From: Hyphomicrobiales bacterium
Lineage (GTDB): Bacteria; Pseudomonadota; Alphaproteobacteria; Rhizobiales; Beijerinckiaceae
Length of the DNA: 64,000 nt
Direction of reading: 5' to 3'
Assembly (NCBI GenBank): GCA_027489955.1
Contig: JAIXYZ010000013.1
Coordinates: forward strand, 930,001-994,000
Shown here piece by piece: positions 13,263-58,100 of this stretch. The notes beneath the pieces are model-generated. The model was given only the letters and a program-made list of their open reading frames with translations. It had not been told where the DNA came from and did not search any database. Position numbers and translations under genes: made by a program. Each line of letters opens with the position of its first letter. The first letter of the stretch is position 1.

Positions 13263-13383
13263 GAAGCGGGCGATGCCACGGGCCCGTGACGTCTCCGTGA
13301 CGGGGATGCGACACGGGATGCGGCTCACCGCCCGTGGCGTTCGCGCGCGCCCTGTCGCAGGATCGGCCGCAAGGAGCGGGACG

Positions 13384-15003
13384 ATGGCCAGCAACGGGAC
13401 GGCTGAGGCCGGCGAGTTCGACTACGTCGTGGTGGGGGCCGGCTCGGCCGGCTGCGTGATGGCGAACCGCCTCTCCGCCGATCCGCGCAACCGCGTCCTC
13501 CTGCTGGAAGCCGGCGGGCGGGACAACTGGATCTGGTTCCACATCCCGGTCGGCTACCTGTTCGCCATCGGCAATCCCCGCGCCGACTGGATGTTCAGGA
13601 CCGAGCCGGAGCCGGGGCTCAACGGCCGGGATCTCGCTTATCCCCGCGGCAAGGTGATCGGCGGCTCGTCGGCGATCAACGCCATGATCTACATGCGCGG
13701 CCAGGCGGCCGACTATGACGGCTGGCGGCAGCTGGGCCTGGAGGGGTGGGGCTGGGACGACGTCCTGCCGTATTTCCTGCGCCACCAGGACCACGCCGTG
13801 CCGGTCGAGGGGATGCATCGCGGCGGCGGGGAATGGCGCGTGGAGCTGCCGCGCGTGCGCTGGGACATCCTGGACGCAATCCGCGACGCCGCCGTCGCCG
13901 CCGGCATTCCCCGCGTCGAGGACTTCAACACCGGCGACAATTCCGGTGTCGCCTACTTCCAGGTCAACCAGCGCCGCGGCCGCCGCTGGAGCGCGGCGCG
14001 CGGGTTCCTGAGGCCGGCGCTCAACCGTCCGAACCTGCGGCTGGAGACGGGCGTCACCGCCGAGCGCGTCATCATGGAGGGGGGCAGGGCAACCGGCGTC
14101 GCCTATCGCGTCGGCGGCGAATTGCGGATCGCCCGTGCGCGGGCCGAAACGATCCTGTGCGCCGGCGCCATCGGCACGCCCATCCTGCTGGAACGGTCGG
14201 GCATCGGCCGTCCCGACGTGCTGGCGTCCAGGGGCCTGCCCGTCGTGCTGGAGAGCTCAGGCGTCGGCGAGAACCTGCAGGACCATCTCCAGCTCCGGCC
14301 GGTCTACAAGGTCAGCGGCGTGCGCACGCTGAACGCCGACTATGCGGTGCCCCTCAAGCGGGCGCTGATGGCGCTGGACTATGCGTTCCGGCGGCGCGGG
14401 CCCCTGACGATGGCGCCCTCGCAGCTTGGCGCCTTCGCCCGTTCTTCGCCCGATTACGCGACGCCCAACCTGCAGTTCCACTTCCAGCCGCTGTCGCTGG
14501 AGAAGTTCGGGGACGCGCTCCACCCGTTCCCCGCCTTCACGGCGAGCGTATGCAATCTGCGCCCGTCCAGCCGCGGGAGCGTCCACCTCAAGGACCCGTC
14601 CGGCGCGCCGGCGATCCGCCCGAACTACCTGGCGACGGACGAGGACCGCCGCGTCGCCGCCGATTCGATCCGGCTCACGCGCCATATCGTGGCGCAGGCG
14701 CCGCTCGCACGGTTCACGCCGGAGGAGTTCCGGCCCGGCGCGGACATCCGGGACGAGGAGGGGCTGGTGAAAGCGGCGGGGGACATCGGCACGACGATCT
14801 TCCATCCGGTCGGCACCGCGCGGATGGGGCCGGACGGCGACCGGGAGGCGGTGCTGGACGCCCGGCTGCGCGTGCGCGGCATCGAGGGCCTGCGGGTGGC
14901 GGACGCCTCGGCCATGCCGCGCATCACGTCCGGCAACACCAATTCCCCGACCATGATGATCGCCGAGAAGGCGAGCGCCATGATCCTGGAGGACCGGCGC
15001 TAG
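13384..15003 (+). CDS. GMC family FAD-dependent oxidoreductase
   Basis: A 539-residue glucose-methanol-choline oxidoreductase, choline-dehydrogenase-like. The FAD dinucleotide site is YVVVGAGSAGCVMANRL near the N-terminus; the GMC signatures are GGSSAINAMIYMRG and GAIGTPILLERSGIG. The active-site His is in HPVGTARMG and the C-terminal SGNTNSPTMMIAEKA is typical. ATG 13384 is preceded by AAGGAG. It oxidises an alcohol of unknown identity; absence of betB, betI or a choline carrier nearby argues against a betaine role. Divergent from the PlsC gene. Confidence 0.93.
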   Translation: MASNGTAEAGEFDYVVVGAGSAGCVMANRLSADPRNRVLLLEAGGRDNWIWFHIPVGYLFAIGNPRADWMFRTEPEPGLNGRDLAYPRGKVIGGSSAINAMIYMRGQAADYDGWRQLGLEGWGWDDVLPYFLRHQDHAVPVEGMHRGGGEWRVELPRVRWDILDAIRDAAVAAGIPRVEDFNTGDNSGVAYFQVNQRRGRRWSAARGFLRPALNRPNLRLETGVTAERVIMEGGRATGVAYRVGGELRIARARAETILCAGAIGTPILLERSGIGRPDVLASRGLPVVLESSGVGENLQDHLQLRPVYKVSGVRTLNADYAVPLKRALMALDYAFRRRGPLTMAPSQLGAFARSSPDYATPNLQFHFQPLSLEKFGDALHPFPAFTASVCNLRPSSRGSVHLKDPSGAPAIRPNYLATDEDRRVAADSIRLTRHIVAQAPLARFTPEEFRPGADIRDEEGLVKAAGDIGTTIFHPVGTARMGPDGDREAVLDARLRVRGIEGLRVADASAMPRITSGNTNSPTMMIAEKASAMILEDRR

Positions 15004-15031: not shown

Positions 15032-16012
15032 CTAGCCCCAGAGCGCGCCCTGCGGCGGATGCACCGTGCTGCCTTCGAACAGAAGGCCGGGCTCCCGGTC
15101 GCGCGCCAGCAGCAGCGGCCCGTCGAGGTCGACGAAGGCGGCGCCGGGCGTGAGATACATGGCCGGCGCCATGGCCAGCGACGTGCCCAGCATGCAGCCG
15201 ACCATGATGTCCAGGCCCATGGCGCGCGCGTCGCGGGCGACGAGAAGCGCCTCGGTCAGCCCGCCGGTCTTGTCGAGCTTGATGTTGATCGCGTCGTAGC
15301 GGCGCGCCACGTCCGCAAGGCTCTTGCGGTCGTGCATGCTTTCGTCGGCGCAGATCGGGATGACGCGGTCGATGTCGGCGAGCAGGTCGTCCTTGCCCGC
15401 GGGCAGGGGCTGCTCGATCAGCTTCACGCCCGCGTCGCGGCAGGCCGCGAGGTTGTCGCGGATGGTCGATGCGTCCCACGCCTCGTTGGCATCGACGACC
15501 AGGACCGCGGCGGGCGCCCCCCGACGCACCGCCGCGATCCGGGCCGTGTCCCCGGCGCCACCGAGCTTGACCTTCAGGATCGGTCTGTCGGCGGCCGCAC
15601 GGGCGGCTCCCTCCATGGTTTCGGGATCGCCCAGGCTGATCGTGTAGCAGGTGGTCACCGGCTTCGGAGCAGCGATCTCGGCAATCTCGGCCACGGGCGT
15701 GCGCGTGCGCTTGGCCTCGAAGTCCCACAGCGCGCAGTCGAGCGCGTTACGAGCGGCGCCCGCCTTCATGCGCGTGAGCAGTTCGGTGCGCGTGCAACCC
15801 CAGGCTATCGGTTCCGCCTGCGCCGCGATCAGGTCCCGGACCCCCTCGACCGTCTCGCCGTAGCGGGCATAGGGCACGCACTCGCCGCGCCCCACCGTGC
15901 CGTCCTCGCTGATCGTCGCGGTGACGACGACGGCCTCGGTGCGGCTTCCGCGGGAGATGGTGAAGGTCCCCGCGATGGGGAAACGCTCGATCTCGACGGT
16001 CAGGCGGCGCAT
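15032..16012 (-). CDS. dgcA: Enolase-superfamily epimerase, DgcA-type N-acetyl-D-glutamate racemase
   Basis: A 326-residue muconate-lactonising-type enolase-superfamily enzyme. Catalytic lysine motif KVKLGG, metal ligands in VVDANEAW, LIEQPLPAG and CADES, and the second catalytic lysine in INIKLDKTGG are all visible. Alone it would be called a dipeptide (L-Ala-D/L-Glu) epimerase. Because it follows a dgcN-type gene by 7 nt, I prefer DgcA, reported to racemise N-acetyl-D-glutamate in bacterial D-glutamate use. The two substrates cannot be separated by motif alone. Confidence 0.85.
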   Translation of the reverse strand: MRRLTVEIERFPIAGTFTISRGSRTEAVVVTATISEDGTVGRGECVPYARYGETVEGVRDLIAAQAEPIAWGCTRTELLTRMKAGAARNALDCALWDFEAKRTRTPVAEIAEIAAPKPVTTCYTISLGDPETMEGAARAAADRPILKVKLGGAGDTARIAAVRRGAPAAVLVVDANEAWDASTIRDNLAACRDAGVKLIEQPLPAGKDDLLADIDRVIPICADESMHDRKSLADVARRYDAINIKLDKTGGLTEALLVARDARAMGLDIMVGCMLGTSLAMAPAMYLTPGAAFVDLDGPLLLARDREPGLLFEGSTVHPPQGALWG

Positions 16013-16019
16013 GGCGGGA

Positions 16020-17054
16020 TCAGCTCGCCGCCTTGGCGCGGACCGTCTGCGGGTAGTCCGCGGCGATCCGGTCCACGATCACGTCGACGCCGAAGCGGAT
16101 CGGATCGGTGGCGGGCAGGTCGTGCTCCCGGGACACCTGCGCCAGGTAGGCGCGCGCCTCATCCTCACCCAGGGCCTGGGTGTTGACGGCGATCCCGACC
16201 GGACGGATGGCCGGGTTGGTGAGCGTGCCGGTGGCGATCGTCAGGTCGATGACCTGGCGGATGGTCGGCAGCGGCGTCTTCACGCCGCGCATCGTCGTGC
16301 GGGTCGGCTCGTGGCAGACCACGAAGGCGTCCGGCTGCGCGCCATGGAGCAGGCCGAGCGACACGCCGGCAAAGGACGGGTGGAACAGCGAGCCTTGGCC
16401 CTCGATGAGGTCCCAGTGATTGGCGTCAGCCGCGGGCGAGATCCACTCCACCGCGCCGGAGATGAAGTCGGCGACGACCGCGTCGATGGCGACGCCGCGG
16501 CCCGAAATGAAGATGCCCGTCTGTCCCGTTGCGCGGAAATCGGCGTCGAAGCCGCGGTCGCGCATGGCCTTCTCCAGCGCGAGCGCCGTGTACTTCTTGC
16601 CGGCCGAGCAATCGGTGCCGACGGTCAGGAGCCGCATGCCGGGGCGCTTGTCGCCCTTGCCCGTGTCGAACCGCATGTCGGAATGACGCACGTCGAAGAG
16701 CTGGCGGCCGTTGCGCCGCGCCGCATCGGCGATCTCCGCCTTGGAGCCGAGGCGCGTATGCAGGCCGCTGGCGACGTCGAACCCGGCGTCGAGCGCTTCC
16801 ACGATGGTACGCACCCAATGGTCGGGCAGCACGCCGCCGGCGTTGGCGACGCCGACGATCATCGTGCGCGTGCCCGCCTTCGCCGCATCCGCGATCGACA
16901 TGTCGGCGATCCCGAGATCGGCCTTGCAGCCGGGGAGGCGGAGCTGGCCGATGCACCAGTCCCGGCGCCAGTCCACGATGCCGGCGGCGGTCTTGGCCGC
17001 GAGCTGGTCGGGAACGTCGCCGAGGAACATCAGGTAGGGAGGGTTGATCTGCAT
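16020..17054 (-). CDS. dgcN: DUF1611-family protein, DgcN-type
   Basis: A 344-residue DUF1611 protein. It opens with PPYLMFLGDVPDQLAAK and contains a P-loop-like VGTDCSAGKKYTAL near the middle, with DLIEGQGSLFHPSF after it. Members next to a DgcA epimerase have been described as DgcN, forming N-acetyl-D-glutamate from D-glutamate. ATG 17054 has GGAGAG six bases before it; the frame extends to 17168 but lacks a ribosome site and would cover an operator. First gene of a two-gene operon with dgcA, divergent from a LysR regulator. Confidence 0.87.
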   Translation of the reverse strand: MQINPPYLMFLGDVPDQLAAKTAAGIVDWRRDWCIGQLRLPGCKADLGIADMSIADAAKAGTRTMIVGVANAGGVLPDHWVRTIVEALDAGFDVASGLHTRLGSKAEIADAARRNGRQLFDVRHSDMRFDTGKGDKRPGMRLLTVGTDCSAGKKYTALALEKAMRDRGFDADFRATGQTGIFISGRGVAIDAVVADFISGAVEWISPAADANHWDLIEGQGSLFHPSFAGVSLGLLHGAQPDAFVVCHEPTRTTMRGVKTPLPTIRQVIDLTIATGTLTNPAIRPVGIAVNTQALGEDEARAYLAQVSREHDLPATDPIRFGVDVIVDRIAADYPQTVRAKAAS

Positions 17055-17106
17055 GCCGCTCTCCATCGCGAGTGACGGCAGATTGCCGCCTCGCCGCGCG
17101 AAATTC

Positions 17107-17125
17107 CAATGCACGTTCTGCATCG
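17107..17125. promoter_or_regulatory. LysR-type operator 1 (CNATGC-N7-GCATNG)
   Basis: A 19-bp interrupted palindrome with a T-N11-A core, arms CAATGC and GCATCG, 7-bp spacer. It lies in the probable dgcN leader, about 47 bp downstream of the predicted minus-strand start. Confidence 0.65.
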
Positions 17126-17169
17126 CGGCGCTGGCCGCAGCCATTAATTCAAGCGTTCTCAACGGCATG

Positions 17170-17175
17170 GTATAA
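17170..17175 (-). promoter_or_regulatory. Probable -10 element of dgcNA
   Basis: TTATAC on the minus strand, with no good -35 at 17 bp, as expected for an activator-dependent promoter. Operator 2 covers the -35 zone. The predicted start is near 17163, giving a dgcN leader of about 110 nt. Confidence 0.4.
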
Positions 17176-17178
17176 GTG

Positions 17179-17197
17179 CGATGCTATTTTCGCATTG
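17179..17197. promoter_or_regulatory. LysR-type operator 2 (CNATGC-N7-GCATNG)
   Basis: Same 19-bp pattern: arms CGATGC and GCATTG around TATTTTC, T-N11-A core. It sits about 25 bp upstream of the predicted dgcN start, beside the -10. Confidence 0.72.
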
Positions 17198-17208
17198 GCC
17201 GCGCATGC

Positions 17209-17227
17209 CCATGCAGCGCTAGCATTG
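17209..17227. promoter_or_regulatory. LysR-type operator 3 (CNATGC-N7-GCATNG)
   Basis: Arms CCATGC and GCATTG around AGCGCTA. Its centre is exactly 30 bp from that of operator 2, about three helical turns, so a LysR tetramer could bind both on one DNA face. Confidence 0.72.
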
Positions 17228-17268: not shown

Positions 17269-18180
17269 GTGGACGTTCGCTGGCTGCAGGATTTCCTCAC
17301 CCTCGCGGAGACCCGGAACTTCACCCGCGCGGCGGCGATGCGCAACGCATCCCAGGCGGCGTTCAGCCGGCGCATCCAGTCGCTGGAAGCCTGGCTCGGC
17401 GCCCCGCTGCTCGACCGCTCCATCTTCCCCACGCGCCTGACGCCCGAGGGCGAGCAGTTCCGCACCTATGCCAGCGAGATCCTGCGCCAGGTCGTGGACG
17501 CGCGCACCGAGCTCAGCGGCAAGCCGACCCAGCGCCCGGAGCACATCCGCATCGCGCTGCCCTATACGCTCGCCACCGCGCGCCTGCCCGACTGGTGGGC
17601 CGACTGGACCAAGGGGCGGCGGCTCAGCTCGTCTCTCGTCCTGGGCAACGTGCACGACATCGTCACGGCTTTGGTCTCGGGCAACGTCGACCTGATGATC
17701 TGCTTCCATAATGCGCAGCAGCCGATCCATCTCGATCCGGACCGGTACGAGCGCCTGCGCATCGAGACGGACACGCTGCGTCCCTATATCAGCCGGGACC
17801 TGCTCGCCCGGGAGCGCTACGCCTTCCCCGGCCGCGAGAACCGGCCCCTGCCGCTCCTCATGTATTCGTCCGGCGTCTATGCCGCGCGCCTCGTCGACCT
17901 GATCTTCGAGGCCGCGCCGGAGAAGATCGTCGGCACCAAGGTCATGGAGAGCGACATGTCGGACGTGCTGCGCGACATGGCGGTGCGCGGCTACGGCATC
18001 GCCTGGCTGTCGGACAGCACCGTCGCCGCCTCGGGAAGGGACGACCTCGTTCCGCTGGGCGGGGCCGGCTGGACGCTGCCTCTGTCCACGCTCGCCTTCC
18101 GCGAGCGCTCCAACGACAAACCGTCGGTGCGCCGCCTGTGGTCTGTCCTCAGCGAGCGGGCGGCGCAGGCCAGCGGCTGA
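17269..18180 (+). CDS. LysR-family transcriptional regulator, probable regulator of dgcNA
   Basis: A 303-residue LysR regulator: winged helix-turn-helix in residues 1-60 (WLQDFLTLAETRNFTRAAAMRNASQAAFSRRIQSLE split over helices 1-3) and a periplasmic-binding-like effector domain after residue 90. The start is the GTG at 17269, with AGGAG six bases upstream; the frame extends to 17176 but that would add an atypical tail. Divergent from dgcN with three matching LysR boxes between them, so autoregulation and control of dgcNA by an acidic amino-acid ligand is the natural reading; the ligand itself is inference. A LysR regulator called DgcR has been linked to dgcN-dgcA elsewhere. Confidence 0.9.
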   Translation: MDVRWLQDFLTLAETRNFTRAAAMRNASQAAFSRRIQSLEAWLGAPLLDRSIFPTRLTPEGEQFRTYASEILRQVVDARTELSGKPTQRPEHIRIALPYTLATARLPDWWADWTKGRRLSSSLVLGNVHDIVTALVSGNVDLMICFHNAQQPIHLDPDRYERLRIETDTLRPYISRDLLARERYAFPGRENRPLPLLMYSSGVYAARLVDLIFEAAPEKIVGTKVMESDMSDVLRDMAVRGYGIAWLSDSTVAASGRDDLVPLGGAGWTLPLSTLAFRERSNDKPSVRRLWSVLSERAAQASG

Positions 18181-31436: not shown

Positions 31437-32624
31437 TCAGGACGCCGCCGCCAGCCTGGCGAAACCGGCCTCGATATCCGCCTTCAGGTCGTCCATGTCC
31501 TCCAGCCCCACCTGGAACCGCAGGGCCGGCCCGCCGGGCTCCCACCGCGTGGCGGTGCGGTAGGACGAGCAGTCGAACGGGATGACGAGGCTCTCGTAGC
31601 CGCCCCAGGAATAGCCGAGGCCGAACAGCTCCAGCCCGTCGAGGAACGCGGCGACCGCCTTCTTCGGGTACGGCTTCAGGATGACCGAGAACAGCCCGGT
31701 CGAGCCCAGGAAGTCGCGCTTCCAGATGGCGTGGCCGGGATGGGAGGGCAGGGCGGGGTGCAGGACCTGGCTCACCTCGGGCCGCTGCTCGAGCCACGCG
31801 GCGAGCGCCAGGCCCCGGGCCTCGGCCTCCTTCAGCCGCAGCGACATGGTGCGCATGCCCCTGAGCGCGAGGAACGCATCCTCCGGCCCGGCGCACATGG
31901 CCATGGCGTCGAACGTTTCCCGCAGGGCAGGGAAGGCGCGGGCGTTGGCCGAGACGAGGCCGAGCAGCAGGTCGGAATGCCCGCCGAGATACTTGGTCCC
32001 GGCTTCGATGGCGAGGTCGACGCCGCGCTCGTGGGGCGGGAAGAAGATCGGCGTTGCCCAGGTATTGTCCATGGCGACGAGGGCGCCCTCCGCATGGGCG
32101 GCCTGCGCTATGGCGGGAATGTCCTGCATCTCGAAGGACTGGGAGCCGGGGGCTTCCGTCAGGACGAGCGACGTACGCGCGCGCATGAGAGCCGCGATTC
32201 CGCCGCCCAGGAGCGGGTCGTAATACTCGGTCTCGACGCCGAGACGCTTCAGGACGCCGTCGCAGAAGATGCGGGTCGGCCTGTAGGCGCTGTCGGGCAC
32301 GAGGATGTGATCGCCGGCCTTCACCACCGAAAGGATCGCGACCGTGATCGCGGCGAGGCCCGATGGCGTCAGCACGGTGCCCGCCGCGCCGCTCAGCTCC
32401 GTCCACGCCTCTTCCAGCGCCCGGATCGTCGGCGTTCCCTTCGTGCCGTAGACGTAAGGCACGTCCCGCGTCTCCAGCGAGCGCGCGTTGGGGTGAAGCA
32501 CCGTCGAACCCCGGTAGATCGGGGTGTTGATGAAGCCGAACTGCTCGTCCGGGCGACGTCCGGCATGCACGAGACGCGTGCCGAGACCACGCGGTTTACG
32601 CGAACCTTCATCGAAATTTTGCAT
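31437..32624 (-). CDS. metC: Cystathionine beta-lyase
   Basis: Cleaves cystathionine to homocysteine, pyruvate and ammonia in methionine synthesis. A 395-residue PLP enzyme with TPIYRGSTVLHPN, YGTKGTPTIRALEEA, the PLP lysine in EAGTKYLGGHSD and the C-terminal RFQVGLEDMDDLKADI. I start at ATG 32624 (MQNFDEGSR), where family similarity begins; the ribosome site is poor and the frame is open to 32762. Divergent from aapJQMP, a neighbour relation common in Rhizobiales, which supports the MetC call over gamma-lyase. Confidence 0.92.
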   Translation of the reverse strand: MQNFDEGSRKPRGLGTRLVHAGRRPDEQFGFINTPIYRGSTVLHPNARSLETRDVPYVYGTKGTPTIRALEEAWTELSGAAGTVLTPSGLAAITVAILSVVKAGDHILVPDSAYRPTRIFCDGVLKRLGVETEYYDPLLGGGIAALMRARTSLVLTEAPGSQSFEMQDIPAIAQAAHAEGALVAMDNTWATPIFFPPHERGVDLAIEAGTKYLGGHSDLLLGLVSANARAFPALRETFDAMAMCAGPEDAFLALRGMRTMSLRLKEAEARGLALAAWLEQRPEVSQVLHPALPSHPGHAIWKRDFLGSTGLFSVILKPYPKKAVAAFLDGLELFGLGYSWGGYESLVIPFDCSSYRTATRWEPGGPALRFQVGLEDMDDLKADIEAGFARLAAAS

Positions 32625-57186: not shown

Positions 57187-58100
57187 CCCTTGCCGAGGCT
57201 GTCCTCCTCACGGTCATCACCGCGTCGACGCCGCTGCTCATCGCCGCCATCGGGGAACTGTTGGCGGAGCGGGCAGGCGTCCTGAACCTTGGCGTGGAAG
57301 GCATGATGGCGGTCGGCGCGGCCTGCGCCTTCGCGGCCGCGGTCTCGCTCGACTCCACTCTCGGCGGCTTCGTCGCGGGGGCGGGGGCCGGCATGGCCCT
57401 CTCTCTCGTCTTCGCCTTCGCCGTGCTCGGCGTCGCCGCGAACCAGGTGGCCTCGGGGCTTGCGCTCACGATCCTGGGGCTTGGCCTGTCGGGCGTCATC
57501 GGCGCCCCGTTCGTGGGCGCGCGCCGCGATCCGATCGCCCACCTGTCGCTGCCGGGGCTGACCGACCTTCCGTTCATCGGCCGCCCGCTCTTCGGGCAGG
57601 ACCCGATCGTCTACCTGTCCTTCGCGCTCGCGGCCGCGATGGCCTGGTTCCTGTTCCGCACCCGCGGCGGTCTGACCCTGCGCGCCATCGGCGAGGACCA
57701 CGCCTCGGCCCACGCGCTGGGACTGCCGGTCCTGAAGGCCCGCTTCCTCGCCATCCTGTTCGGAGGTGCGTGCGCAGGGCTCGCGGGAGCGTATCTCTCG
57801 CTCGTCTACACGCGCTTCTGGTCACCGGGCATGACCGGCGGTCGCGGCTGGATCGCGCTTGCCCTGGTGGTCTTCGCCGCCTGGAGGCCGGGTAGAGCGC
57901 TGGCCGGCGCCTATCTCTTCGGCCTCGCCACCGTGCTGCAGCTCCACGCCCAGGCGGGCGCGATCCGGCTGCCGTCCCAGCTCCTCTCCGCCATGCCGTA
58001 TCTCGTGACGATCCTGGCGCTGGTCATCCTGGCGGCGCGGGACCGGCGGTCCACGGGCGCCCCGGCCTCCCTCGGCATTCCCTTCGTGCCCGACCGGTAG
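57183..58100 (+). CDS. BMP-type nucleoside ABC transporter permease 2
   Basis: 305 residues, BPD_transp_2 family: TPLLIAAIGELLAERAGVLNLGVEGMM and the coupling segment GEDHASAHALGLPVLKARF. ATGA overlap with permease 1. No binding-protein gene follows; ychF is next with its own promoter, so the receptor must be encoded elsewhere. Confidence 0.93.
   Translation: MTLAEAVLLTVITASTPLLIAAIGELLAERAGVLNLGVEGMMAVGAACAFAAAVSLDSTLGGFVAGAGAGMALSLVFAFAVLGVAANQVASGLALTILGLGLSGVIGAPFVGARRDPIAHLSLPGLTDLPFIGRPLFGQDPIVYLSFALAAAMAWFLFRTRGGLTLRAIGEDHASAHALGLPVLKARFLAILFGGACAGLAGAYLSLVYTRFWSPGMTGGRGWIALALVVFAAWRPGRALAGAYLFGLATVLQLHAQAGAIRLPSQLLSAMPYLVTILALVILAARDRRSTGAPASLGIPFVPDR

Follow-up and report, generated by a model that had tools for sequence, protein, structure and literature searches.

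A palindromic motif at the dgcN–lysR intergenic region is probably the operator of a DarR-like LysR-type regulator

Bacterial cell walls supply a pool of D-glutamate that is overlooked as a nutrient; to our knowledge its sensing by bacteria is hardly known and the pathway is poorly studied. In Pseudoalteromonas sp. CF6-2 the regulator DgcR reportedly activates dgcN and dgcA, and DarR of Vibrio fischeri is said to respond to D-aspartate and to control racD. According to the title of Jones et al. 2018 (J Bacteriol 200:e00773-17, via PMC12502697), DarR directs responses to D-aspartate. In the textbook LysR layout a recognition site lies near −65, which is usual and not universal, and an activation site at −35 (PMC8407307). 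BenM and CatM, which act as LysR tetramers, have three T-N11-A palindromes, one strong and the others weaker (PMC6628147). LysR sites of ThnR, from tetralin degradation, are 55 bp apart, separated by whole helical turns, and a DNA-loop complex is formed at divergent promoters (PMC4834489).

The locus described here lies in a 64-kb window (the whole stretch of DNA that was analysed) and contains a gene pair predicted to serve D-glutamate breakdown. Specifically, dgcN (16020–17054, minus strand) encodes a protein of the D-glutamate N-acetyltransferase family (Pfam DUF1611; NCBIfam NF041892 DgcN, 531 bits, cut-off 480) and is followed downstream by dgcA (15032–16012, minus strand), encoding an N-acetyl-D-Glu racemase (NF042940 DgcA, 478 bits, cut-off 400). 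Both products pass the curated NCBIfam equivalog cut-offs. Convergent with dgcA is a choline-dehydrogenase-like GMC oxidoreductase gene (13381–15003) that scores just under the cut-off of PRK02106 (549 vs 605). On the other side of dgcN, a divergent lysR gene is found at 17269–18180 (plus strand). Its start codon is probably the GTG at 17269, which is preceded by AGGAG, and other start codons are possible upstream. The product has both LysR domains above gathering threshold, an N-terminal HTH (HTH_1, PF00126, 64.2 bits) and a C-terminal substrate-binding domain (LysR_substrate, PF03466, 69.5 bits). The best PDB match is 7dwn/7dwo (E 2.4e-33, residues 2–295), which is DarR of V. fischeri (PMC12421958). 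The nearest NCBIfam LysR model, HypT (NF007488), gives 113 bits and thereby stays below its equivalog cut-off of 301 bits. By its full-length similarity to DarR and by the genes found beside it or its orthologues (racemase, D-amino-acid dehydrogenase and dgcN), the regulator would belong to the DarR group.

An initial annotation had described three copies of the palindrome CNATGC-N7-GCATNG between dgcN and lysR. All of them are present as exact copies, at 17107–17125 (site 1), 17179–17197 (site 2) and 17209–17227 (site 3), with centres at 17116, 17188 and 17218 and thus 72 and 30 bp apart. Site 1 is proximal to dgcN and reads CGATGCAGAACGTGCATTG on the dgcN (minus) strand; site 3 is proximal to lysR. 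The 64-kb window has four literal matches as compared to 0.19 expected, and none of 100 shuffles reached four. The fourth match (12637) falls within a coding sequence and scores 0.9 bits by the matrix derived from relatives, which is chance level. Scanning all 3.13 Mb of the genome for the literal pattern gave 8 matches, close to the chance rate. It is therefore the clustering and not the pattern as such that is striking: when the 214-bp intergenic region was shuffled 20,000 times by dinucleotides, no shuffle contained two or more sites. Although the genome-wide rate would suit an origin of the palindromes by chance, this explanation is refuted by the clustering, the shuffles and the conservation across species, and we regard it as practically out of the question.

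A position weight matrix was built from 30 distinct sites with the genus excluded. The refined consensus is YRATGCAAA-N-TTTGCATYR, a T-N11-A palindrome. When the window is ranked by this matrix, site 2 is at the top (20.6) and is followed by site 1 (18.4), a sequence at 32608 (16.2) and site 3, a weak site (9.5). The consensus and the ranking show that the outer C/G pair is dispensable and that the A/T-rich interior (AAA-N-TTT) belongs to the motif. The outer pair, taken at first as a shared feature of the operators, is indeed found in all three sites here and is not essential, since the consensus of the relatives has Y and R at these positions. The sequence at 32608 was rejected as an operator; it overlaps a probable start codon and is without counterpart in a relative.

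The motif follows the LysR across relatives. About 110 dgcN loci were compared, and the 480 bp upstream of dgcN were searched for ATGC-N7-GCAT. It was found at every locus that has this LysR (26/26) and at none of the 84 loci without it, where the best matrix score was 3.2. Fisher's test gives 8e-26 for this split, a value that overstates the independent evidence because the loci share kinship and the 26 represent fewer independent events; the split is complete nevertheless. In the present genome, three of the eight literal matches are those of the dgcN–lysR locus. Regarding gene order, in another family of the class (L149, L150 and L156) the genes form a dgcN-dgcA-lysR operon with lysR downstream, and two sites 63–64 bp apart lie upstream of dgcN and not of lysR. 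This connects the sites with the promoter of dgcN, beyond mere proximity to lysR, and supports the earlier proposal that they belong to dgcNA control.

The motif also accompanies orthologues of the LysR that are located away from dgcN. Bradyrhizobium-like genomes have an orthologue (62–63% identical) that is divergent to a D-amino-acid-dehydrogenase-like gene (376.8 bits, cut-off 383), and exact sites are found beside that gene, two in L143 and three in the other loci. In this group (L114–L116, L140–L147) two adjacent palindromes are exactly 16 bp apart and share a GCAT-G-ATGC junction. The same 16-bp spacing occurs in L153 and L157, where the pair precedes an Asp/Glu-type racemase gene and lysR comes after this gene. 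The racemase of L153 passes the cut-off of the cysteate racemase model, which leaves room for a different acidic amino acid as effector. The three best genome-wide matches in one relative (G026) are upstream of dgcN, of the gene for a Glu/Asp-type ABC substrate-binding protein, and of a gene for a D-amino-acid transaminase (381 bits, cut-off 320). One orthologue, in L151 (G808; 62% identical), has no operator upstream and no dgcN adjacent. It is located just downstream of tad-type pilus genes in a 2.3-Mb genome and is possibly a displaced or decaying copy. Our comparison shows the identity of the motif and its co-occurrence with the LysR. As the motif tracks the LysR across many alphaproteobacteria, it is very probably the binding site of this protein, in agreement with the original suggestion that the sites serve the divergent LysR as operators. 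Another transcription factor working at the dgcN–lysR region would have to account for the perfect co-occurrence across dgcN loci, for the T-N11-A form and for the motif beside LysR orthologues that are not linked to dgcN, and we find such an owner very improbable.

The motif had also been put forward as a regulon search pattern. In its literal form it is unfit for this in the present genome, since matches outside the dgcN–lysR locus occur at chance frequency; in relatives its refined form picks out a coherent D-amino-acid regulon. With the refined consensus the best-scoring operator-like site found in this genome outside the dgcN–lysR locus is at 57628–57646 of contig C4 (25.0 bits); it precedes a threonine-aldolase-like gene and lies about 500 bp before an apparent gltB. 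It was not counted as a regulon member because no counterpart turned up in the same-genus genome. In the same-genus genome, searched with up to three mismatches, there was no match beyond dgcN and the counterpart of another candidate, C2:5483. The latter was also set aside: although a counterpart exists in the relative, it is situated among TTGCA repeats, and an RpiR-type regulator is its likelier owner. This conserved repeat cluster (5483–5501 of contig C2, L158; also L171) lies between a PotD-like transporter gene and the gene of an RpiR/MurR-type regulator, and is probably the operator of that regulator itself.

For the placement of the sites relative to the dgcN promoter, 22 loci were aligned on the dgcN-proximal site. 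The only strongly TATAAT-like block of columns is at +31 to +36 from the centre of this site, with on average 3.0 matches to TATAAT as compared to about 1 at other offsets, and with at least 4 matches in 13 of the 22 loci. TTGG is present at +7 to +10 and is contributed by the arm of the proximal site itself, which gives a promoter of the form TTGGNN-18-CANNAT in the relatives. The comparison shows a fixed geometry between the proximal operator and the dgcN promoter. At the present locus the predicted −35 box is TTGGAA (17104–17109, minus strand), overlapping the arm of site 1, and the predicted −10 box is CAATCT (17080–17085, minus strand). Transcription of dgcN would then start near 17073, and the leader, about 20 nt long, would contain a likely ribosome-binding site, GGAGAG (17059–17064, minus strand). 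A strict promoter consensus scan found nothing here and the predicted −35 box is weak; the promoter has been assigned by comparison of the loci. Site 1 would thus be centred near −43. It had been thought to lie within the dgcN leader, which is probably wrong: one arm of the site supplies the predicted −35 box of a promoter that is conserved among the loci, so that the site would belong to the promoter. Site 2 is the counterpart of the strong distal site of the relatives, predicted at about −115 of dgcN. A candidate lysR promoter, TTCAAG-17-TATAAG (17148–17176), which would place site 2 on the lysR start, is not conserved in the same-genus relative and was kept only as a lead.

Spacing between the sites was compared among the dgcN loci. 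The common layout is a strong distal site and a weak −43 site 63–98 bp apart, and in nearly all loci the distance is 63–65, 72–77 or 95–98 bp. The distinct spacings cluster in helical phase (for a period of 10.5 bp, R 0.65 and p 0.006). When each lineage contributes a single value, R is 0.59 (p 0.03), so that the result depends on how lineages are counted, and periods of 10.5–11.75 bp fit about equally well. This tendency towards whole helical turns suggests contact between the sites on one face of the helix, as in looping. In a locus of the Rhodospirillales (L073:3525–4003) the operators are 274 bp apart, and the intervening DNA contains an apparent short repeat element whose ends are related (cacagatgaacgcagatgg and its reverse complement).

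The same operator could also work with no long-range loop, if the strong site only repressed lysR and the −43 site alone drove dgcN. Such an arrangement is possible and in our opinion rather unlikely. In its favour, most genomes have the strong site close to lysR, a lone strong site is found in L117 at about 59 bp upstream of dgcN, and spacing ranges from 63 to 274 bp; on the other hand, the dgcN-dgcA-lysR operons keep both sites upstream of dgcN with lysR elsewhere, and the spacings fall into the three clusters given above. Moreover, the proximal site usually has one degenerate arm, which suggests that it needs help.

A looped or three-site switch had been proposed for this locus. Its looping part gains weak statistical support from the phasing. 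The three-site part is not general, because most relatives have two sites. Site 3 is retained in the same-genus relative (L013), where the spacing of the three sites is unchanged (30/72), 24/24 arm bases are identical and the sites show 82% identity as compared to 50% for the rest of the region. No site 3 was found at the dgcN loci of other genera. It is thus genuine within the genus and outside the common design. In Bradyrhizobium-like genomes the three-site layout is of a different kind. A switch resembling BenM, with the tetramer shifting between site pairs (30 vs 72 bp) depending on effector, would agree with the spacing being the same in the two genus members and has a precedent in BenM and CatM (PMC6628147). 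We consider it improbable given that site 3 is restricted to the genus and, in contrast to site 3 of BenM, lies beyond the other sites as seen from the dgcN promoter.

Based on these results our preferred reading, to which we give a probability of roughly 0.85, is that the motif is the operator of a divergent DarR-like LysR that controls dgcN-dgcA and probably its own gene through a distal and a −43 site, with an acidic D-amino acid as the likely effector. A LysR dimer would occupy the strong distal site (site 2), and the weak −43 site would be contacted by the second dimer of the same tetramer or by a second tetramer. This would require bending or looping of the intervening 63–98 bp. LysR bound at the −43 site would overlap the −35 box and may either recruit or block RNA polymerase. 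The acidic D-amino acid would be D-glutamate or its N-acetyl form. Site 3 may be a genus-specific auxiliary that stabilises binding or represses lysR. In a wider and more tentative interpretation, which we hold with somewhat less than even confidence, a DarR-like LysR subfamily in several alphaproteobacterial orders would use one operator sequence, rewired among enzymes of D-amino-acid degradation, and would activate dgcN via a loop that changes by whole helical turns between lineages. The predicted operator, promoter and regulon motif make the D-glutamate sensor and the genes that respond to it testable by binding and reporter assays, and the motif allows regulon mapping in genomes whose enzymes differ.

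Compared with the known systems, the enzymes are the same as in DgcR-dgcN-dgcA of Pseudoalteromonas sp. CF6-2. The target of DarR, reportedly racD, is different from dgcNA here. The two systems are similar in that a LysR adjoins genes for acidic D-amino acids, and orthologues of the present LysR are also found beside Asp/Glu-type racemases; V. fischeri DarR (7DWN, Wang et al. 2021) is its closest solved relative over the full length. BenM and CatM likewise have three T-N11-A palindromes, one strong and the others weaker, but differ in their arms (ATAC...GTAT), in a compact layout near the promoter and in aromatic effectors. ThnR is a precedent for phased looping by a LysR; both of its sites are primary for two target promoters, whereas here a strong distal site is combined with a weak −43 site over 63–98 bp. 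With the textbook layout the locus shares a strong palindromic site and a weaker one touching the −35 box. The sites are predicted at about −43 and −115 of the target promoter and not near −65, and the strong site across the loci would be at about −105 to −140. Judged from sequence, the system would be of a known kind, a LysR operator-regulon, and what is unusual is the distant strong site.
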